Shown here: positions 178 through 5,492 of the stretch, one piece after another | Layout of the letters: every line of letters begins with the position of its first letter | How positions within the stretch are numbered: the stretch's first letter is position 1 | Source: J061 sp003695725 [NCBI: Candidatus Schekmanbacteria bacterium] | Lineage (GTDB): Bacteria; Schekmanbacteria; GWA2-38-11 | Assembly (NCBI GenBank): GCA_003695725.1 | Contig: RFHX01000298.1 | Location: 1 to 5,492, forward strand | Direction of reading: 5' to 3' | DNA: 5,492 nucleotides | The notes under the pieces: model-generated | Database searches by the model: none | Told to the model about the DNA's origin: nothing | Seen by the model: only the letters and a program-made list of their open reading frames with translations | Translations under genes and position numbers: made by a program

Positions 178-888
178 TTATAAAGGCTTTCTATAACAAG
201 CTACGATATGAGCTCTAAAAATAAAAAAAGTTTTTGTGCTAAGAATCATTTCCATAAATCCCAAAGTTTTTCGCAACAAGGGGCTTTTCCAATAACCATG
301 TCCATGAGTATGATGAATATAATACTCTTCTTCAAACCCCACTGCCTTTGACATCTTTTCAAAAGCCCATTTAGTATTACATTTATAATGAGTAGGATAT
401 GTACCTTCATCAAGCTCCATATTGAGCAATCTTTTCTTTAAAAAAACTCTAAATTCTGAAGGGAATAGATAACTTAGAAACATTACAGGATGGTATTTAT
501 TTTGAGTCGATATTATGACATAACCGCCCGGTTTAAGTATTCTTGCAAATTCTGACCATACGCTTTGCGGTTCTGTCAAATGTTCAAAAACAGAACGACA
601 TATAATCAGTTGCACTGATTCATCTTTCAAAGGAATTTGAGAAAGATTACCTTCAGCTCCAATAGAAATTATTTTATTTTCTGCTATAGATTCTCTACTA
701 ATATCTATTCCAATTACTTTTTTCCCTAAAAAACGACTTTCTCTACCTTGCCAATAATCACCACTTCCACATCCTGCATCCAATAGGATGGAACATTTAT
801 CAAGTTTTTCTGTAACCCAATCATCATAAAATGACTCTTTACATTGAAGGAGTGCAGGGTCAACATATTTTTCAAGAAAATTTCCCAT
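178..888 (-). CDS. Class I SAM-dependent methyltransferase (Methyltransf_11-like)
   Basis: A 236-residue soluble protein with the Rossmann methyltransferase signatures in order: glycine-rich motif I LLDAGCGSGDY (35-45), the acidic residue ending strand 2 in IGIDIS (D62), an NLSQIPLKDES segment (81-91) where the adenine-binding acidic loop is expected, CRSVFEHLTEP (97-107), and RILKPGGYVIIST (116-128). Such enzymes transfer a methyl group from S-adenosylmethionine. Placed between the chain-length kinase and a ligase-like gene, it probably methylates a sugar, a lipid-linked precursor or the chain end, but the acceptor cannot be read from sequence. The C-terminal third is less conserved and holds a histidine cluster (HHTHGHGYW, 192-200). 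The ATG is preceded by TAA four codons upstream with no ATG, GTG or TTG between, so the start is firm unless an unusual CTG is used. No Shine-Dalgarno sequence is visible; a small upstream frame ends 8 bases before it and may supply ribosomes. Family very sure, substrate unknown. Confidence 0.93.
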   Translation of the reverse strand: MGNFLEKYVDPALLQCKESFYDDWVTEKLDKCSILLDAGCGSGDYWQGRESRFLGKKVIGIDISRESIAENKIISIGAEGNLSQIPLKDESVQLIICRSVFEHLTEPQSVWSEFARILKPGGYVIISTQNKYHPVMFLSYLFPSEFRVFLKKRLLNMELDEGTYPTHYKCNTKWAFEKMSKAVGFEEEYYIHHTHGHGYWKSPLLRKTLGFMEMILSTKTFFIFRAHIVACYRKPL

Positions 889-993: not shown

Positions 994-3093
994 CTATACC
1001 TGATGCAGCTCCTCTTCCTTTTTGTAGTAGCTGTAATAATATTCTGAATAGTAATAATCTGAATCTTGTTTTCTCACATCATTTAATAAAACATTCAATC
1101 TCTTAACATCTAAATCCAAAAATCTCTTTGCATTCTTTTCCACAATATTCTTTGCTGTTACACCGCTCCTTACTACAAGACAAACAACATCTGAATATTT
1201 TGAAATTATCGACGGATCAGTTACAGGCACTACAGGAGGCGCATCGATTATAATAATGTCAAAGTTATCTTTATAAATTTTAATCAAAGACTTCATTCTT
1301 TCCTTCATCAAAAGCTCTGCTGGATTTTTTGGGACCGGACCACTCGGTAAAATATTGAGATTTGTAATGCTGCTTTTCACTATAAGCGAAAAAGCATCTA
1401 TATTCTCATCTGTGAGTAGTGTGCTTAATCCATATTTATTTTCAAGGCGGAAAATGTCATGAATCCTTGAACGCCTCAGGTCACCATCCATCAATAATAC
1501 TTTTTTTTCACTTTGAGCCATAGCTATTGCAATATTGACTGCAGAAACAGTTTTCCCTTCGCCCGGTGTTGAACTTGTCACCATTATAACTTTTGGTGGA
1601 ACTTCAGTCGAGAAAAGGATATTTGTCCTAACAGCGCGGTAACATTCAGAGACAGTTGATTTTGGATGGGTATATGTTATCAATTCAGGACTTACTCGTT
1701 GTGACCTTTTCTTCATATAGCTGTGTATATTTGGCACAAACCCCAAAATAGGAAGATTCAAATAATGCTCAACATCTTCCAAAGACCTGATTGTTTCATC
1801 GAGATATTCAAGGAAAAAGGCAAAGCCTAAACCGAATATAAGTCCTACAACAGCTCCAAGAATGAGATTTCTTGGCACATTGGGACTTATAGGCTTTTTA
1901 GGTACTGTTGCCTTATCAACGAGACTAATATTGTTGAAGCGCATACTTCCTGTCACATTTATTTCACCTGCTCTCTTTAATAAGTAGTCATAGAGATTGC
2001 GGTTTATCTCTACTTCCCTGTTTAAGATATTATATTGAATTGACCTCTCCAATAATCCAATTGCAGTATTATTTAGCTCCTTTTTTCTCTCATTGTATAA
2101 TTTCTCCTTTGCTTTCAGTAATTCATACTGATTATTGATTCTATTGATTACTTTATCAATTTCTGTTTGGATATTTTTATTAATCGCATCTATTTGTGCC
2201 TTGACTTTCAAAACTTCAGGATGTTTTTCTCCAAATTCTGTTTTAAGTTTATACAAAGTTTGTGTTAAAGCATAGATTTGCCCTCTCATTGCCTGAATTC
2301 CGGTTCCCTGTAAAACTTCTGGCAATGTCGTTTCATCTATATCTATTCCTTTATCTCTTAATTCCTTAATCTGCTTTAAAGCTATTTCAAGTTCTAATTT
2401 TCTCGACCGAAGTCCCTGTAACTCCCTTGTCACCTGATTCAATTCAGCAATTACATTGCTCTGTCTTTCTTCAATCTTTGGTGAAATTATCTGTTTCTGT
2501 TCTCTGTATTTTTGAAGATCAAATTCCGCTTTCTTCATCTTAACAATAACGGATGTTATTTGGTCATCAAGCCAGCTTGAAGCTGTCTTATAACTATTAA
2601 CCTTATCTTCCAAACTTTTCTCGATATAAACATCAGTCACTAAATTAACCAACCGCGCCACTTCCTTTGGGTCAGGTCCCATCATAGCTAAATCAACTAA
2701 ATTTGTCCCTTTAACTGGATTGACAATGATCTTTGCTCGAATTGCATCGGCTCTCGCTATTCTTTCGTCTTCTGTCAAATTCTCATTGGGAAAAAGTCGG
2801 TCAACAACTTCTAGTGCAACCATTCTGCTCTTTATAATTTCATACTGTGTTTCAAAATATTCATTATAGCCAGAAAATTTATTGATATCTTGGAAAGAAA
2901 CTATATTGCTTGCAGAATATTCGATAAGAATTCTCGATTTTGCCATATAAAGTTTTTTCTGCTTGAATGTTGCAATGGAAACAGAAACAAGAATAAACAT
3001 TGCAATGAGGACCACTGTCCAAACTCTTTTTTTGACTATGTAAAAATAGTCCTTCAGTGAAAGTTTAGTTTCTATTTTCTTAGCAACATCCAT
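994..3093 (-). CDS. wzc: Wzc-type polysaccharide co-polymerase fused to a BY-family tyrosine autokinase
   Basis: A 699-residue inner-membrane protein that controls polysaccharide chain length and export. Visible in order: Wzz-like N-terminal domain (about 10-105) with membrane segment 1 (about 25-42); a long periplasmic region rich in predicted coiled coil (about 165-350); a GNVR-type segment and proline motif PKKPISPNVP (398-407) leading into membrane segment 2 (about 409-430) with GxxxG spacing (G413, G417, G421); then the cytoplasmic kinase. The kinase has the ExxRxxR oligomerisation motif (E483, R486, R489), Walker A SSTPGEGKT (507-515, K514), Walker A' LLMDGDLR (533-540, D536 and D538) and Walker B IIIIDAPP (613-620, D617). 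The tail carries eight tyrosines in eleven residues (680-690), the expected autophosphorylation cluster. All catalytic motifs are intact and both domains are in one polypeptide, as in proteobacterial Wzc. No cognate Wzb-type phosphatase is in the window. It starts 29 bases after the OPX stop, and its own ribosome site is weak. Confidence 0.97.
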   Translation of the reverse strand: MDVAKKIETKLSLKDYFYIVKKRVWTVVLIAMFILVSVSIATFKQKKLYMAKSRILIEYSASNIVSFQDINKFSGYNEYFETQYEIIKSRMVALEVVDRLFPNENLTEDERIARADAIRAKIIVNPVKGTNLVDLAMMGPDPKEVARLVNLVTDVYIEKSLEDKVNSYKTASSWLDDQITSVIVKMKKAEFDLQKYREQKQIISPKIEERQSNVIAELNQVTRELQGLRSRKLELEIALKQIKELRDKGIDIDETTLPEVLQGTGIQAMRGQIYALTQTLYKLKTEFGEKHPEVLKVKAQIDAINKNIQTEIDKVINRINNQYELLKAKEKLYNERKKELNNTAIGLLERSIQYNILNREVEINRNLYDYLLKRAGEINVTGSMRFNNISLVDKATVPKKPISPNVPRNLILGAVVGLIFGLGFAFFLEYLDETIRSLEDVEHYLNLPILGFVPNIHSYMKKRSQRVSPELITYTHPKSTVSECYRAVRTNILFSTEVPPKVIMVTSSTPGEGKTVSAVNIAIAMAQSEKKVLLMDGDLRRSRIHDIFRLENKYGLSTLLTDENIDAFSLIVKSSITNLNILPSGPVPKNPAELLMKERMKSLIKIYKDNFDIIIIDAPPVVPVTDPSIISKYSDVVCLVVRSGVTAKNIVEKNAKRFLDLDVKRLNVLLNDVRKQDSDYYYSEYYYSYYKKEEELHQV

Positions 3094-3122: not shown

Positions 3123-4124
3123 CTATTCGGAATAAAAAATACTCTTTGGAACAATTATAACATCTCCATCTCGAATTTTTAATTCTTCCAACTCCTTTCT
3201 GAATCTTTCGGATTTTGCGGGTAATCCTCTTTCAAGACCCTTTCTAATTCTTTCAACATTTACAACATAGACTTCCCTGCCGCCGTTGCGTATCAATTTG
3301 ACTGCTGTTTCTCTTGCTCCTCTCGTAAAATCACCTGCCACTATAATTGCCTGATATATATTATAATCTTCCTGTAAAGTATAGTATCCAGATTTCCCAA
3401 CTTCTCCACTTATAAAAAACTTTGCTTCCGGTATATCGATAACATCGTTTTCTTGTAATAGTATATTTTTTTGAATTTCGCCATCAATAACAGGAATTTC
3501 TATTTCAACCATCTTTTCGCTATTATTATCTTTTTGAAGCCGCTTGATTATAATCCTGTTTCCTGCTGTTTTTTTCAAACCTCCCAATTGAGAAATAAAT
3601 TCAAATAATGATGTGGGTTTCTTAAGAAAATATTTGCCATTCTTTTCAGCTTCTCCGATTACAAAAACTTTTTTGCTCCTATATTCCTTTACAGAAACAA
3701 AAACCTGCGGATTTTCTATATATCCATTTGACAATAAGCCTGCTATTTTATCGGCTATTTCAGATGGCGTAAGTCCTGCCACATATATTTTTTTAAAAAA
3801 AGGATAATTTATAGTTCCGTCTTCAAGCACTTCAGCTTCAAATGATAATTCGTTATGCTCCCAAACCTTAATATTTATAATGTCTTCAGGACCTACTGTA
3901 TACCATTCCTTATTTGAGTCGACTACAGGCTCTGTCAACTGGACTACTTCCATTGAATTACCTTCTTCATTCACTTTTTCTTGCGATGTACTGGTATATT
4001 TCTTTATGATAAGATGGTCTGCAGCAAAAAAACTACAGCTACCAAAGACAAACAAGTAAAATAAAGATAGAATCAATAAAAACGATTTTCCCCTAAAATA
4101 TTTCATATAATTCCTCATTGCCAT
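3123..4124 (-). CDS. Polysaccharide export outer-membrane lipoprotein (Wza/OPX family) without a C-terminal helix
   Basis: The periplasmic conduit for polysaccharide export. The longest frame starts at ATG 4160 (345 residues; numbering here follows it). I prefer ATG 4124 (Met13), preceded by GGAG with a 7-base spacer; ATG 4106 (Met19, GAGGA, 5-base spacer) also suits, giving MKYFRGK followed by a hydrophobic core. ATG 4160 has no ribosome site. The signal sequence ends FGSC (Cys42), an imperfect lipobox with Phe at -3; Ser43 after the Cys would permit outer-membrane sorting. The polysaccharide export domain begins at YTVGPEDIINIKVW (87-100) and runs to about 158. SLBB 1 spans about 165-245 and SLBB 2 about 247-338, ending GDVIIVPK. 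Only six residues follow, so the amphipathic helix that forms the Wza outer-membrane pore is absent. It lies between the beta-barrel gene and the Wzc-like gene. Family is sure; lipidation is likely but not certain. Confidence 0.95.
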   Translation of the reverse strand: MAMRNYMKYFRGKSFLLILSLFYLFVFGSCSFFAADHLIIKKYTSTSQEKVNEEGNSMEVVQLTEPVVDSNKEWYTVGPEDIINIKVWEHNELSFEAEVLEDGTINYPFFKKIYVAGLTPSEIADKIAGLLSNGYIENPQVFVSVKEYRSKKVFVIGEAEKNGKYFLKKPTSLFEFISQLGGLKKTAGNRIIIKRLQKDNNSEKMVEIEIPVIDGEIQKNILLQENDVIDIPEAKFFISGEVGKSGYYTLQEDYNIYQAIIVAGDFTRGARETAVKLIRNGGREVYVVNVERIRKGLERGLPAKSERFRKELEELKIRDGDVIIVPKSIFYSE

Positions 4125-4135
4125 AATATTTCTCC
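4112..4135 (-). promoter_or_regulatory. Two ribosome binding sites deciding the OPX start
   Basis: On the minus strand GGAG (4135-4132) precedes ATG 4124 by 7 bases, and GAGGA (4116-4112) precedes ATG 4106 by 5 bases. The upstream tandem ATGs at 4160 and 4157 have no comparable site. Both favoured starts keep the whole hydrophobic signal core and the candidate lipobox Cys, so the choice does not alter the mature protein. Confidence 0.5.
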
Positions 4136-4144
4136 GACTATAAA

Positions 4145-4173
4145 AAAGTATTCTCATCATTAATCATTGTCAA
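4145..4173 (-). promoter_or_regulatory. Weak candidate internal sigma-70 promoter before the OPX gene
   Basis: A perfect -35 hexamer TTGACA (4173-4168) is followed after 17 bases by TACTTT (4150-4145), which matches the -10 consensus at its three most conserved positions only. Transcription would begin near 4138, just before the GGAG that serves ATG 4124; that fits the shortened start and would exclude ATG 4160. In AT-rich DNA such partial matches are common, so this is a suggestion only. Confidence 0.2.
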
Positions 4174-4222
4174 TCATAATTTATATAAAACATCCTTTTA
4201 CTCTACTATCCTTATTTTTTTC

Positions 4223-5492
4223 TCAATAGGTAAAATTTATACTAAAAGTATATCGGTTTCTTACAAAACTTCCAAAAAAACTCGTCCTTTTTTCGTGAAG
4301 ATAACCAAAACGCAAATTTGTTTTTCGGGATATTCTAAAATTTAGATTATCTTCGATGTTCCATCTTCTATCTTTTCTTTTAACACTTCCAAAAAAAAAT
4401 CCCCCTCCTTCAAACTCATTAAGACCGAATCGATATTCAATTTCATTTCTGATTCTCTCAAAAAATTGGTTATCCAATCTCACTGTTATATTTTTAAATA
4501 CTGAATTCCCACCATTGACACTATTAGTCCAATTTCTTGTCCTTCCTGCAATTATATCAATGTCCGAATGGTCCGTAAGTTTCCCTCTTAAAGAAAGAAA
4601 CATAGAAAGAGTCCGTCTAGTATTTTCTTTTTTAACATTTTTATACGATGTGTCTGTCACAGTCCTATTGACATTGTAATACAATGATAAACGGTCTGTA
4701 AGAGCCAAAAAAACACCTGTTGACCAAGTCAGTCTGTCGTCTTCGGGTCGTGATACAGAATTTGCCTTTCTTTTCCCTGTGCCAATTTGTGCATTGATTC
4801 GAATAAAATCCCCTATTGATTGTTGGATCCCATAATTTACCTGCCTTGATTGCGAATCTCTGAGCGGGTCATTCTTATACAAATTCCTTTGATACCAATA
4901 GCGGACAAAAAAACTGGTATCCTTAACAGGCTTAAAGCCCAAACGAATATTCATATTATCAAGTTTTCTATTATTCTTTGAAAATGAAAAAAAAGTGTTG
5001 CTTTTATCAATGTAACGGTAATTCTCATTTCTATAATTAAAAAATACATCAAACATTGTGCCAATTGGCATAAAAATATCGCCCGCAAACCTGTTTTCAG
5101 ACCTATCAGTACGGTCAAATTTTTCTTTTGTTAAAAAAGGGCTTAGTTCTGTTGATACAAAGTTATCTTCCAAATGGAGTTTTATTCGAGCAGGAAGTCT
5201 CACCGTCATTTCTGCTTCATAAAAAGTGTCCTGAAATTTAGATTTTTTCCCGGTAGATTCAGAAAAGTATCGATACGGGCTTCTAAGATTCAGTCTAATT
5301 TCAGCTATTCCTTTTTCATAAGAAAAATCTAAGGAAGGACTTACATTGATTGTATAGGCGCTTTCTTTCTTTTCCGTAAATCTGTAATTGTCATCATAAG
5401 AATATGTTACATTTACTCTTGGCTCAATTTTAATGCCTGCTATTCCAATCTTTCCATCAGCTTTTTGAGAGAAAAAACAATAAAATATAGAT
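4223..5492 (-). CDS. Outer-membrane beta-barrel protein (putative beta-barrel porin 2 type), 5' end outside the window
   Basis: The frame is open from stop TGA (4225-4223) to the right edge, giving 422 visible codons and no start. The first visible residues SIFYCFFSQKADG look like the end of a signal peptide, so the true start is probably only a few tens of bases outside. An ATG at 5209 lies inside the domain and is not the start. Next comes IKIEPRVNVTYSYDDNYRFT (visible residues 20-39) and VSPSLDFSYEKG, the P-x-x-x-x-Y-x-DDN and SPSL pattern typical of BBP2-like barrels. The rest is alternating polar/aromatic strands with charged turns, for example SFFVRYWYQRNLY and RLSLYYNVNRT. It ends YTFSINFTY with a terminal aromatic residue, as expected for the assembly signal of outer-membrane barrels. 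Position directly before the OPX gene suggests a pore for polymer passage, which is inference. A run of nine T (4399-4391) encodes three Phe. Strand number was not computed; length fits roughly 16-18. Confidence 0.87.
   Translation of the reverse strand, partial: SIFYCFFSQKADGKIGIAGIKIEPRVNVTYSYDDNYRFTEKKESAYTINVSPSLDFSYEKGIAEIRLNLRSPYRYFSESTGKKSKFQDTFYEAEMTVRLPARIKLHLEDNFVSTELSPFLTKEKFDRTDRSENRFAGDIFMPIGTMFDVFFNYRNENYRYIDKSNTFFSFSKNNRKLDNMNIRLGFKPVKDTSFFVRYWYQRNLYKNDPLRDSQSRQVNYGIQQSIGDFIRINAQIGTGKRKANSVSRPEDDRLTWSTGVFLALTDRLSLYYNVNRTVTDTSYKNVKKENTRRTLSMFLSLRGKLTDHSDIDIIAGRTRNWTNSVNGGNSVFKNITVRLDNQFFERIRNEIEYRFGLNEFEGGGFFFGSVKRKDRRWNIEDNLNFRISRKTNLRFGYLHEKRTSFFGSFVRNRYTFSINFTY
4391..4399 (-). 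repeat. Nine-base homopolymer tract inside the beta-barrel gene
   Basis: Nine A on the + strand (T on the coding strand) form three in-frame TTT codons in GGGFFFGS, next to a run of five G. Slippage would frameshift the last 55 residues and remove the C-terminal barrel assembly signal. It was the longest single-base run noticed in the window, but long A/T runs are expected at this composition, so a phase-variation role is unproven. Confidence 0.4.

Follow-up and report, generated by a model that had tools for sequence, protein, structure and literature searches.

How does a polysaccharide cross the outer membrane when the outer-membrane polysaccharide export (OPX) protein of its export locus lacks a membrane helix? 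The question is raised by contig RFHX01000298.1 of a Candidatus Schekmanbacteria bacterium (G000:C298), which was analyzed whole (5492 bp; hereafter the window). Its GC content of 0.331 agrees with the AT-rich character noted in a preliminary description of this DNA. There are four genes, all on the minus strand, which encode an outer-membrane beta-barrel, an OPX lipoprotein, a polysaccharide co-polymerase (PCP) with a bacterial tyrosine kinase (BY-kinase), and a methyltransferase. By likeness of arrangement, the barrel, OPX and PCP very probably constitute a composite OPX/beta-barrel polysaccharide translocon. The features that bear on this reading are the following.

4223..5491, minus strand: BBP2_2 outer-membrane beta-barrel, 422 amino acids (aa) seen, the start of the signal peptide being lost at the contig end (Pfam, profile comparison, AlphaFold2 model)
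4643..4744, minus strand: extra hairpin made up of barrel residues 250-283 (strands 12-13 in the model; occupied in 4 of 25 aligned barrels)
3123..4160, minus strand: OPX lipoprotein, Poly_export + SLBB + SLBB (D1-D3, no D4 helix), 345 aa (Pfam, profiles)
4035..4052, minus strand: lipobox-like FVFGS/C with Cys42 of the OPX protein, read by eye against the lipobox pattern; the cysteine is invariant in four members of the order
3126..3146, minus strand: KSIFYSE, the C-terminal tail of OPX, which corresponds to the aromatic end in other barrel-coupled OPX proteins (sequence comparison)
994..3093, minus strand: Wzc-type PCP with fused BY-kinase (Wzz, GNVR and AAA_31; Pfam)

The barrel and OPX genes are separated by 62 bp, the OPX and PCP genes by 29 bp, and the third gap, between the PCP and methyltransferase genes, measures 105 bp. 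A polysaccharide gene, the PCP with its Wzz domain, is thus present within five genes of OPX, the distance used by Schwabe et al. 2022 for composite translocons. The preliminary description had proposed that barrel, OPX and Wzc-type kinase form a two-part outer-membrane channel, and this proposal is supported by gene order, protein families, the missing OPX helix, the coupling of the two genes elsewhere and a model of the barrel that is free of a plug.

The short end of the OPX protein

Pfam places Poly_export at residues 84-158 of the OPX protein and detects two stretches each of SLBB_2 and SLBB, the best ones at 163-241 and 247-299, respectively. Neither Wza_C nor GfcC was matched at E-values up to 0.1, and on Pfam evidence alone the protein has the domain content of class 3 (Poly_export and SLBB, without Wza_C or GfcC). 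The same library matches Wza_C at 55.2 bits in a control OPX protein (L057), but it also misses two OPX proteins judged to be helix-tailed (L004 and L051), so the absent match is little proof on its own. Length is the stronger evidence. The last SLBB strand of the window protein ends in GDVIIV and is followed by eight residues, PKSIFYSE, which leave no space for a helix domain, whereas L004 and L051 run on for 36 residues past the end of the profile. It had been stated that the protein ends six residues after the second SLBB domain without an amphipathic C-terminal helix; the short end and the missing helix stand, while the count after the last strand is eight rather than six. Within the last 38 residues, the best amphipathic 18-mer has a helical moment of 0.46 at a mean hydrophobicity of -0.49 and is sited before the last strand. 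The same measure gives 0.65 at 0.04-0.05 for L004 and L051 and 0.54 at 0.18 for the Wza_C control, and since 0.46 is set against 0.54-0.65, the moment alone separates helix-less from helix-tailed proteins poorly. By tail length and moment together, the window OPX lacks a C-terminal membrane helix.

The ends of 37 sequences were compared, these being the window protein and the 36 OPX proteins encoded beside a BBP2_2 gene in the survey described below. Every one stops at most 8 residues past the last SLBB strand (31 by pattern, 6 by eye). The final residue is F in 30/37, an S-x-F end is found in 20/37, and VPESFF is typical. Four members of the order, including G003, where the barrel is unseen, carry YSE or YTE past the F. 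Short OPX proteins of about 190 aa and longer ones of about 300 aa end alike. Compared by eye, the lengths of PCP and OPX proteins show no clear relation. Because five OPX proteins without a BBP2_2 gene seen next to them share the same kind of C-terminal end (L047, L052, L054, L064 and L152), the ending marks the helix-less type and not adjacency.

The genome harbors two other OPX genes, both on other contigs (C131 and C288) and each with a PCP gene; neither lies at the window locus, where a separate helix-bearing Wza would have spoken against the proposal. The OPX on C131 (L004) ends in a candidate helix and comes with an 808-aa PCP of its own. Together with its relative on G001:C2 (L051), it shows a conserved amphipathic end, IAPVLRTINEGLQPFYIY, a PCP of about 805 aa, no Wza_C match by Pfam and no barrel-like gene directly adjoining. 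This second OPX lies behind an AAA-ATPase-like gene and an HD-domain gene, both tested in L004 only. The third OPX, on C288 (L005, 2477-5311), has 944 aa, six SLBB stretches and a hydrophobic end, and C288 also carries a separate PCP gene (402 aa). The C131 and C288 proteins may help the window locus in trans.

Further OPX proteins were met outside this genome. The scan of genome contigs with the OPX profile gave, in the best 80 of 541 matches, mainly proteobacterial OPX proteins, many with a Wza_C-like end. In Alcanivorax-type genomes, five helix-tailed (class 1) OPX proteins (L058, L071, L099, L119 and L130) each have a barrel-like protein of about 500 aa encoded directly upstream, the start of which we take to resemble Wzi. 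The sole match of the viral-contig scan was an OPX with a Wza_C-like end, RWNRFISQLLP, at the edge of an IMG/VR contig filed as viral (L133), which looks like host DNA rather than viral.

The adjoining barrel and the conservation of the pair

The gene just upstream of the OPX gene had been described as a beta-barrel with an aromatic C-terminus. This was borne out: the protein ends in FSINFTY and matches BBP2_2 (PF10082) at 26.5 bits when searched as protein, above the cut-off of 23.7, but it reaches only 16.9 bits in the translated-genome search, under the same cut-off. A profile of three order members compared with a 22-row BBP2_2 alignment, 21 rows of which were drawn from OPX-coupled loci, gave a probability of 99.7% over 357 columns, so that the assignment is firmer by profile-profile comparison than by single sequence. 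No Pfam match to the Wzi family was found in the window barrel, and the barrel profile gave weak matches only against the sequences of solved structures, the best being OmpG (E 0.0024). Outer-membrane proteins of PEP-CTERM systems also turn up in BBP2_2-type searches (L152, L235, L236 and L238; in L152 and L235 the TIGR03016 match was confirmed), hinting that a related barrel is used in XrtA loci.

Of the 60 genomes listed, G001 (same family), G002 and G003 (same order) are the only ones in the taxonomic order of the window, and a search for the barrel returned G000, G001 and G002 alone. The barrel-OPX-Wzc gene order, the conservation of which had been put forward as a check, is kept in G001 and G002: the barrel lies directly upstream of OPX and PCP, and Wzy_C and TPR genes follow (of the further genes tested, DUF362 and oxidoreductase genes come next in G001, and a glycosyltransferase gene lies further along in G002). 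G003 has the OPX and PCP genes and is uninformative on the barrel, its contig ending 245 bp upstream of OPX.

BBP2_2 genes were then sought in three partly overlapping searches (145, 335 and 384 genomes), giving 51 distinct places, 50 of which were fetched with about 1.5 kb on each side (G238:C23 was left out) and examined for OPX with a profile built from A1. An OPX gene lies beside the BBP2_2 gene in 36 of these 50 loci, which are not fully independent, as some genomes belong to the same genus. The barrel comes first in 34 of the 36, its match ending within 380 bp of OPX, and OPX comes first in G110 and G267. By chance, well under one in 50 would be expected at about two OPX genes per 3-Mb genome, a level that is our own estimate and not a run control. 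A search of 386 genomes with the barrel profile, at E up to 0.01, gave 11 matches outside the order; five of these adjoin OPX (G090, G118, G255, G358 and G336), a count that leaves out G272 and G380. In 20 genomes of named organisms there are nine BBP2_2 places, five of them over the cut-off, and OPX adjoins three of the nine: in Vibrio splendidus MOR1 (L233), Photobacterium damselae (L234) and Thalassomonas sp. M1454 (L230).

The barrel, OPX and PCP genes would thus make a trans-envelope polysaccharide export line. The inner-membrane PCP/BY-kinase would handle the growing polymer; the OPX lipoprotein would form a periplasmic ring (D1-D3) that is held by its lipid at the outer membrane and cannot cross it; and one BBP2_2 barrel on the OPX ring would be the outer-membrane pore. 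The C-terminus of OPX, often S-x-F and here extended by YSE, would lie at the top of the ring and probably touch the periplasmic turns of the barrel. Oligomer state, docking and transport are what we infer. The pathway is putatively of the Wzx/Wzy type, judging from the Wzy_C gene that follows PCP in G001 and G002, a gene not on the window contig.

Several observations weigh against a translocon. The start of the barrel and the remainder of the operon lie beyond the contig end. No OPX was detected in the fetched stretch of 14 of the 50 BBP2_2 loci (G090:C71, G113, G019, G116, G118:C94, G036, G100, G331, G382, G237, G285, G173, G394:C412 and G364); of these, G382 ends about 100 bp past the barrel, G394:C412 runs into the end of its contig, and in G285 an OPX (L152) is located about 2.5 kb off. 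G285, with its OPX further off, and G382, which runs out of contig, are also among the 11 matches outside the order, and no OPX was found in the roughly 12 kb fetched for the matches in G263 and G364. Six of the nine places in named organisms are without OPX, and conversely the five helix-less OPX proteins listed above have no BBP2_2 gene seen as the next gene. The closest PDB matches of the barrel model are large barrels generally, not polysaccharide translocons specifically.

The loci without OPX would suit a general porin that adjoins the OPX gene here by chance, and Foldseek does return general porins at similar scores. Chance adjacency is nevertheless very improbable in our judgement: adjoining pairs far exceed the estimated expectation in the survey of 50 loci, and the tail-less OPX type goes together with the barrel. 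Improbable as well is a Wzi-like role, in which the barrel would hold the polymer on the cell surface and export would proceed via another OPX. According to the available text of PMC9603273, the Wzi barrel has 18 strands and occurs near OPX genes, and a candidate helix-bearing OPX exists in the genome at C131; however, the window barrel has no Wzi match by Pfam and no plug-sized stretch in its model, the OPX coupled to it is without a membrane helix of its own, and the C131 protein has its own PCP. A composite translocon therefore remains the reading that we adopt for the three genes.

Two further features complete the window.

1024..1056, minus strand: tyrosine cluster YYYSEYYYSYY at the kinase C-terminus (sequence)
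178..888, minus strand: S-adenosylmethionine (SAM) methyltransferase, 3' of PCP, with a putative tie to the polymer (Pfam)

The fusion of the kinase had been singled out in the preliminary description. The PCP does carry GEGKT, LLMDGD and IIIDAP in addition to the tyrosine cluster, and as judged from these motifs it is a fused BY-kinase of the ordinary Wzc layout, with nothing peculiar. The slot after PCP, taken by the methyltransferase gene here, holds the Wzy_C gene in G001 and G002, which suggests that the operon is rearranged in the window.

Strand number of the barrel

AlphaFold2 run on a 25-row alignment gave a best model with a mean predicted local distance difference test score (pLDDT) of 86.1 and a predicted template modelling score (pTM) of 0.79, the five models ranging from 82.6 to 86.1 in pLDDT; with only the three order members aligned, pLDDT was 34. 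When two strands broken by DSSP (63-78, 83-99) are joined and a three-residue piece (15-17) is disregarded, the model has 20 strands of 12-21 residues each. The strands are linked alternately by turns (nine, of 2-4 residues) and loops (ten, of 2-14 residues, with at least 5 in eight of them), as would be expected of an outer-membrane barrel with both ends periplasmic. A barrel of at least 16 strands is thus predicted within five genes of OPX, in fact as the next gene.

The longest stretch between strands has 14 residues, which argues that there is no plug domain. Strand 1 begins at residue 20, and in the full-length homologue of G001 only a signal-peptide-like stretch lies ahead of the barrel. 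The N-terminal plug of TonB-dependent receptors is therefore missing from the window barrel, as is a segment large enough for the helical plug of Wzi. A plugged lumen, which had been named as one finding that would speak against an export channel, did not appear in the 20-strand model. By ideal geometry, and not from the model, the C-alpha radius would be 17.6-18.9 Å for 20 strands versus 15.8-17.2 Å for 18.

Residues occupy strands 12 and 13 in 4 of the 25 aligned rows (the window, G001, G002 and L198). Strand 14 reaches 60% occupancy in only 3 rows, since the insertion includes its first third; in the others its second part is aligned, as judged by eye. The remaining 17 strands are filled in all 25 rows. 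The other 21 barrels hence align to an 18-strand core, only strands 12-13 being extra. In a structure comparison by VIA-align the model superposed on large barrels (357 residues at 4.0 Å for the best match, Z 19.9), and the Foldseek TM-scores by query length were middling, 0.31-0.57 among the 50 matches listed, with AlgE at rank 14 (E 1.1e-6).

With one good model and a consistent insertion in three related sequences and L198, we are slightly inclined to a barrel wall of 20 strands. It is quite possible, and compatible with a translocon, that the barrel is an ordinary 18-stranded one whose extra hairpin lies outside the wall and is miscounted by the model. The 18-strand core of 21 of the 25 relatives points that way, as do EpsX, ExoB and WzpB, all modelled with 18 strands. 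Hydrophobicity alternates only weakly between the two sides of strands 12 and 13 (0.12 and 0.09, in an all-strand range of 0.08-1.14), as it does in the neighboring strands 9-11, 14 and 16; loop 13/14 of the model has only 2 residues; and the count of 20 presumes that the barrel is closed. On the other hand, pLDDT is 95 per block over residues 251-280 (71 in 281-290), and strands 12 and 13 are regular, with 14 and 16 residues. The pattern of tight turns (2-4 residues) on one side and loops that are mostly longer on the opposite side holds over all 20 strands. In addition, 343-382 residues align to barrels of TonB-dependent receptors versus 295-315 to OccK-type porins, which we take to have 22 and 18 strands, respectively.

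An origin of the hairpin by duplication was considered and is not claimed. Hairpins 12/13 and 14/15 are the most similar of 36 hairpin pairs when the three order members are pooled, in a test made after the shared motif had been noticed, and the pooled score was reached by 21 of 500 parity-keeping shuffles. Singly, the pair ranks first in G002, fourth in G001, 15th in the window and 17th in L198; since one sequence carries the signal, duplication is a hint only.

A 2018 survey (PMC6340704, in the available text) reports solved barrels for all even strand numbers between 8 and 26 with the exception of 20 and discusses whether a plug is needed. No solved 20-stranded bacterial outer-membrane barrel was found in the accessible portions of the open-license literature, and later work may exist. 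The present model is not the first prediction of its kind, because AlphaFold2 models of 20-stranded Tpr barrels are given in the available part of PMC9001972 and a low-quality 20-stranded model in that of PMC5406399.

Relation to known export systems

The closest parallels come from two papers, cited here from their available text. Schwabe et al. 2022 (PMC9601211) report that EpsX and EpsY of Myxococcus xanthus stabilize and bind each other (proteomics, pull-down), that short OPX proteins are coupled to a barrel in ten phyla with the coupling extending to D1D2D2 forms, and that VpsN/VpsM of Vibrio cholerae is a coupled pair. Saidi et al. 2022 (PMC9603273) place such OPX proteins in class 3, call the barrel Wzp, and find homologues of MXAN_7418/3226/1916 only in myxobacterial genomes. 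Neither "BBP2" nor "PF10082" occurs in the main text of the two papers, as far as it was available. Like EpsX/EpsY, the window pair combines an OPX without a D4 helix, an adjoining outer-membrane barrel and a PCP partner. In contrast, EpsY is a D1D2 protein while the window OPX has D1-D3 and 345 aa, above the empirical 280-aa ceiling of the short-OPX survey subset of Schwabe et al.; EpsX is modelled with 18 strands while 20 are predicted here; and the Pfam label BBP2_2 is given here to the window barrel. The likeness to class 3 OPX and Wzp lies in a Poly_export-SLBB protein without Wza_C or GfcC and a barrel gene next door. In V. splendidus MOR1, the barrel of L233 is encoded just upstream of a short OPX ending in S-F-F, and this may be a VpsM/VpsN pair. 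The profile of the window OPX matches E. coli Wza (2j58) over D1-D2 (E 1.5e-30); Wza, however, spans the membrane by its own helices (PMC9601211, available text), and the window protein is without such a helix.

Because the composite translocon was published in 2022 (EpsX/EpsY, Wzp), the window system is not new in kind. On this analogy it is a further member of the published type, with the longer D1-D3 architecture, which is likewise mentioned by Schwabe et al., and it extends the published export mechanism to this lineage. BBP2_2 becomes a usable family label for the translocon barrel, and the aromatic OPX end (often S-x-F) a C-terminal signature, the docking of which is directly testable by mutation. 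What is new here is the prediction of a 20-strand, plug-free barrel with an extra hairpin 12-13 in an OPX-coupled family. On balance we lean toward a genuine 20-stranded barrel in this small lineage, which would derive from 18-stranded OPX-coupled BBP2_2 proteins by gain of that hairpin and would give a wider pore on the OPX ring. If true, it would supply the strand count missing among the solved bacterial barrels of the 2018 survey (PMC6340704, as available). It would also represent an unplugged transition from 18 to 20 strands, speaking against the view that 20 strands need a large plug, and the 18-stranded relatives in the same gene setting would permit the study of how a hairpin is gained while the partner is kept.

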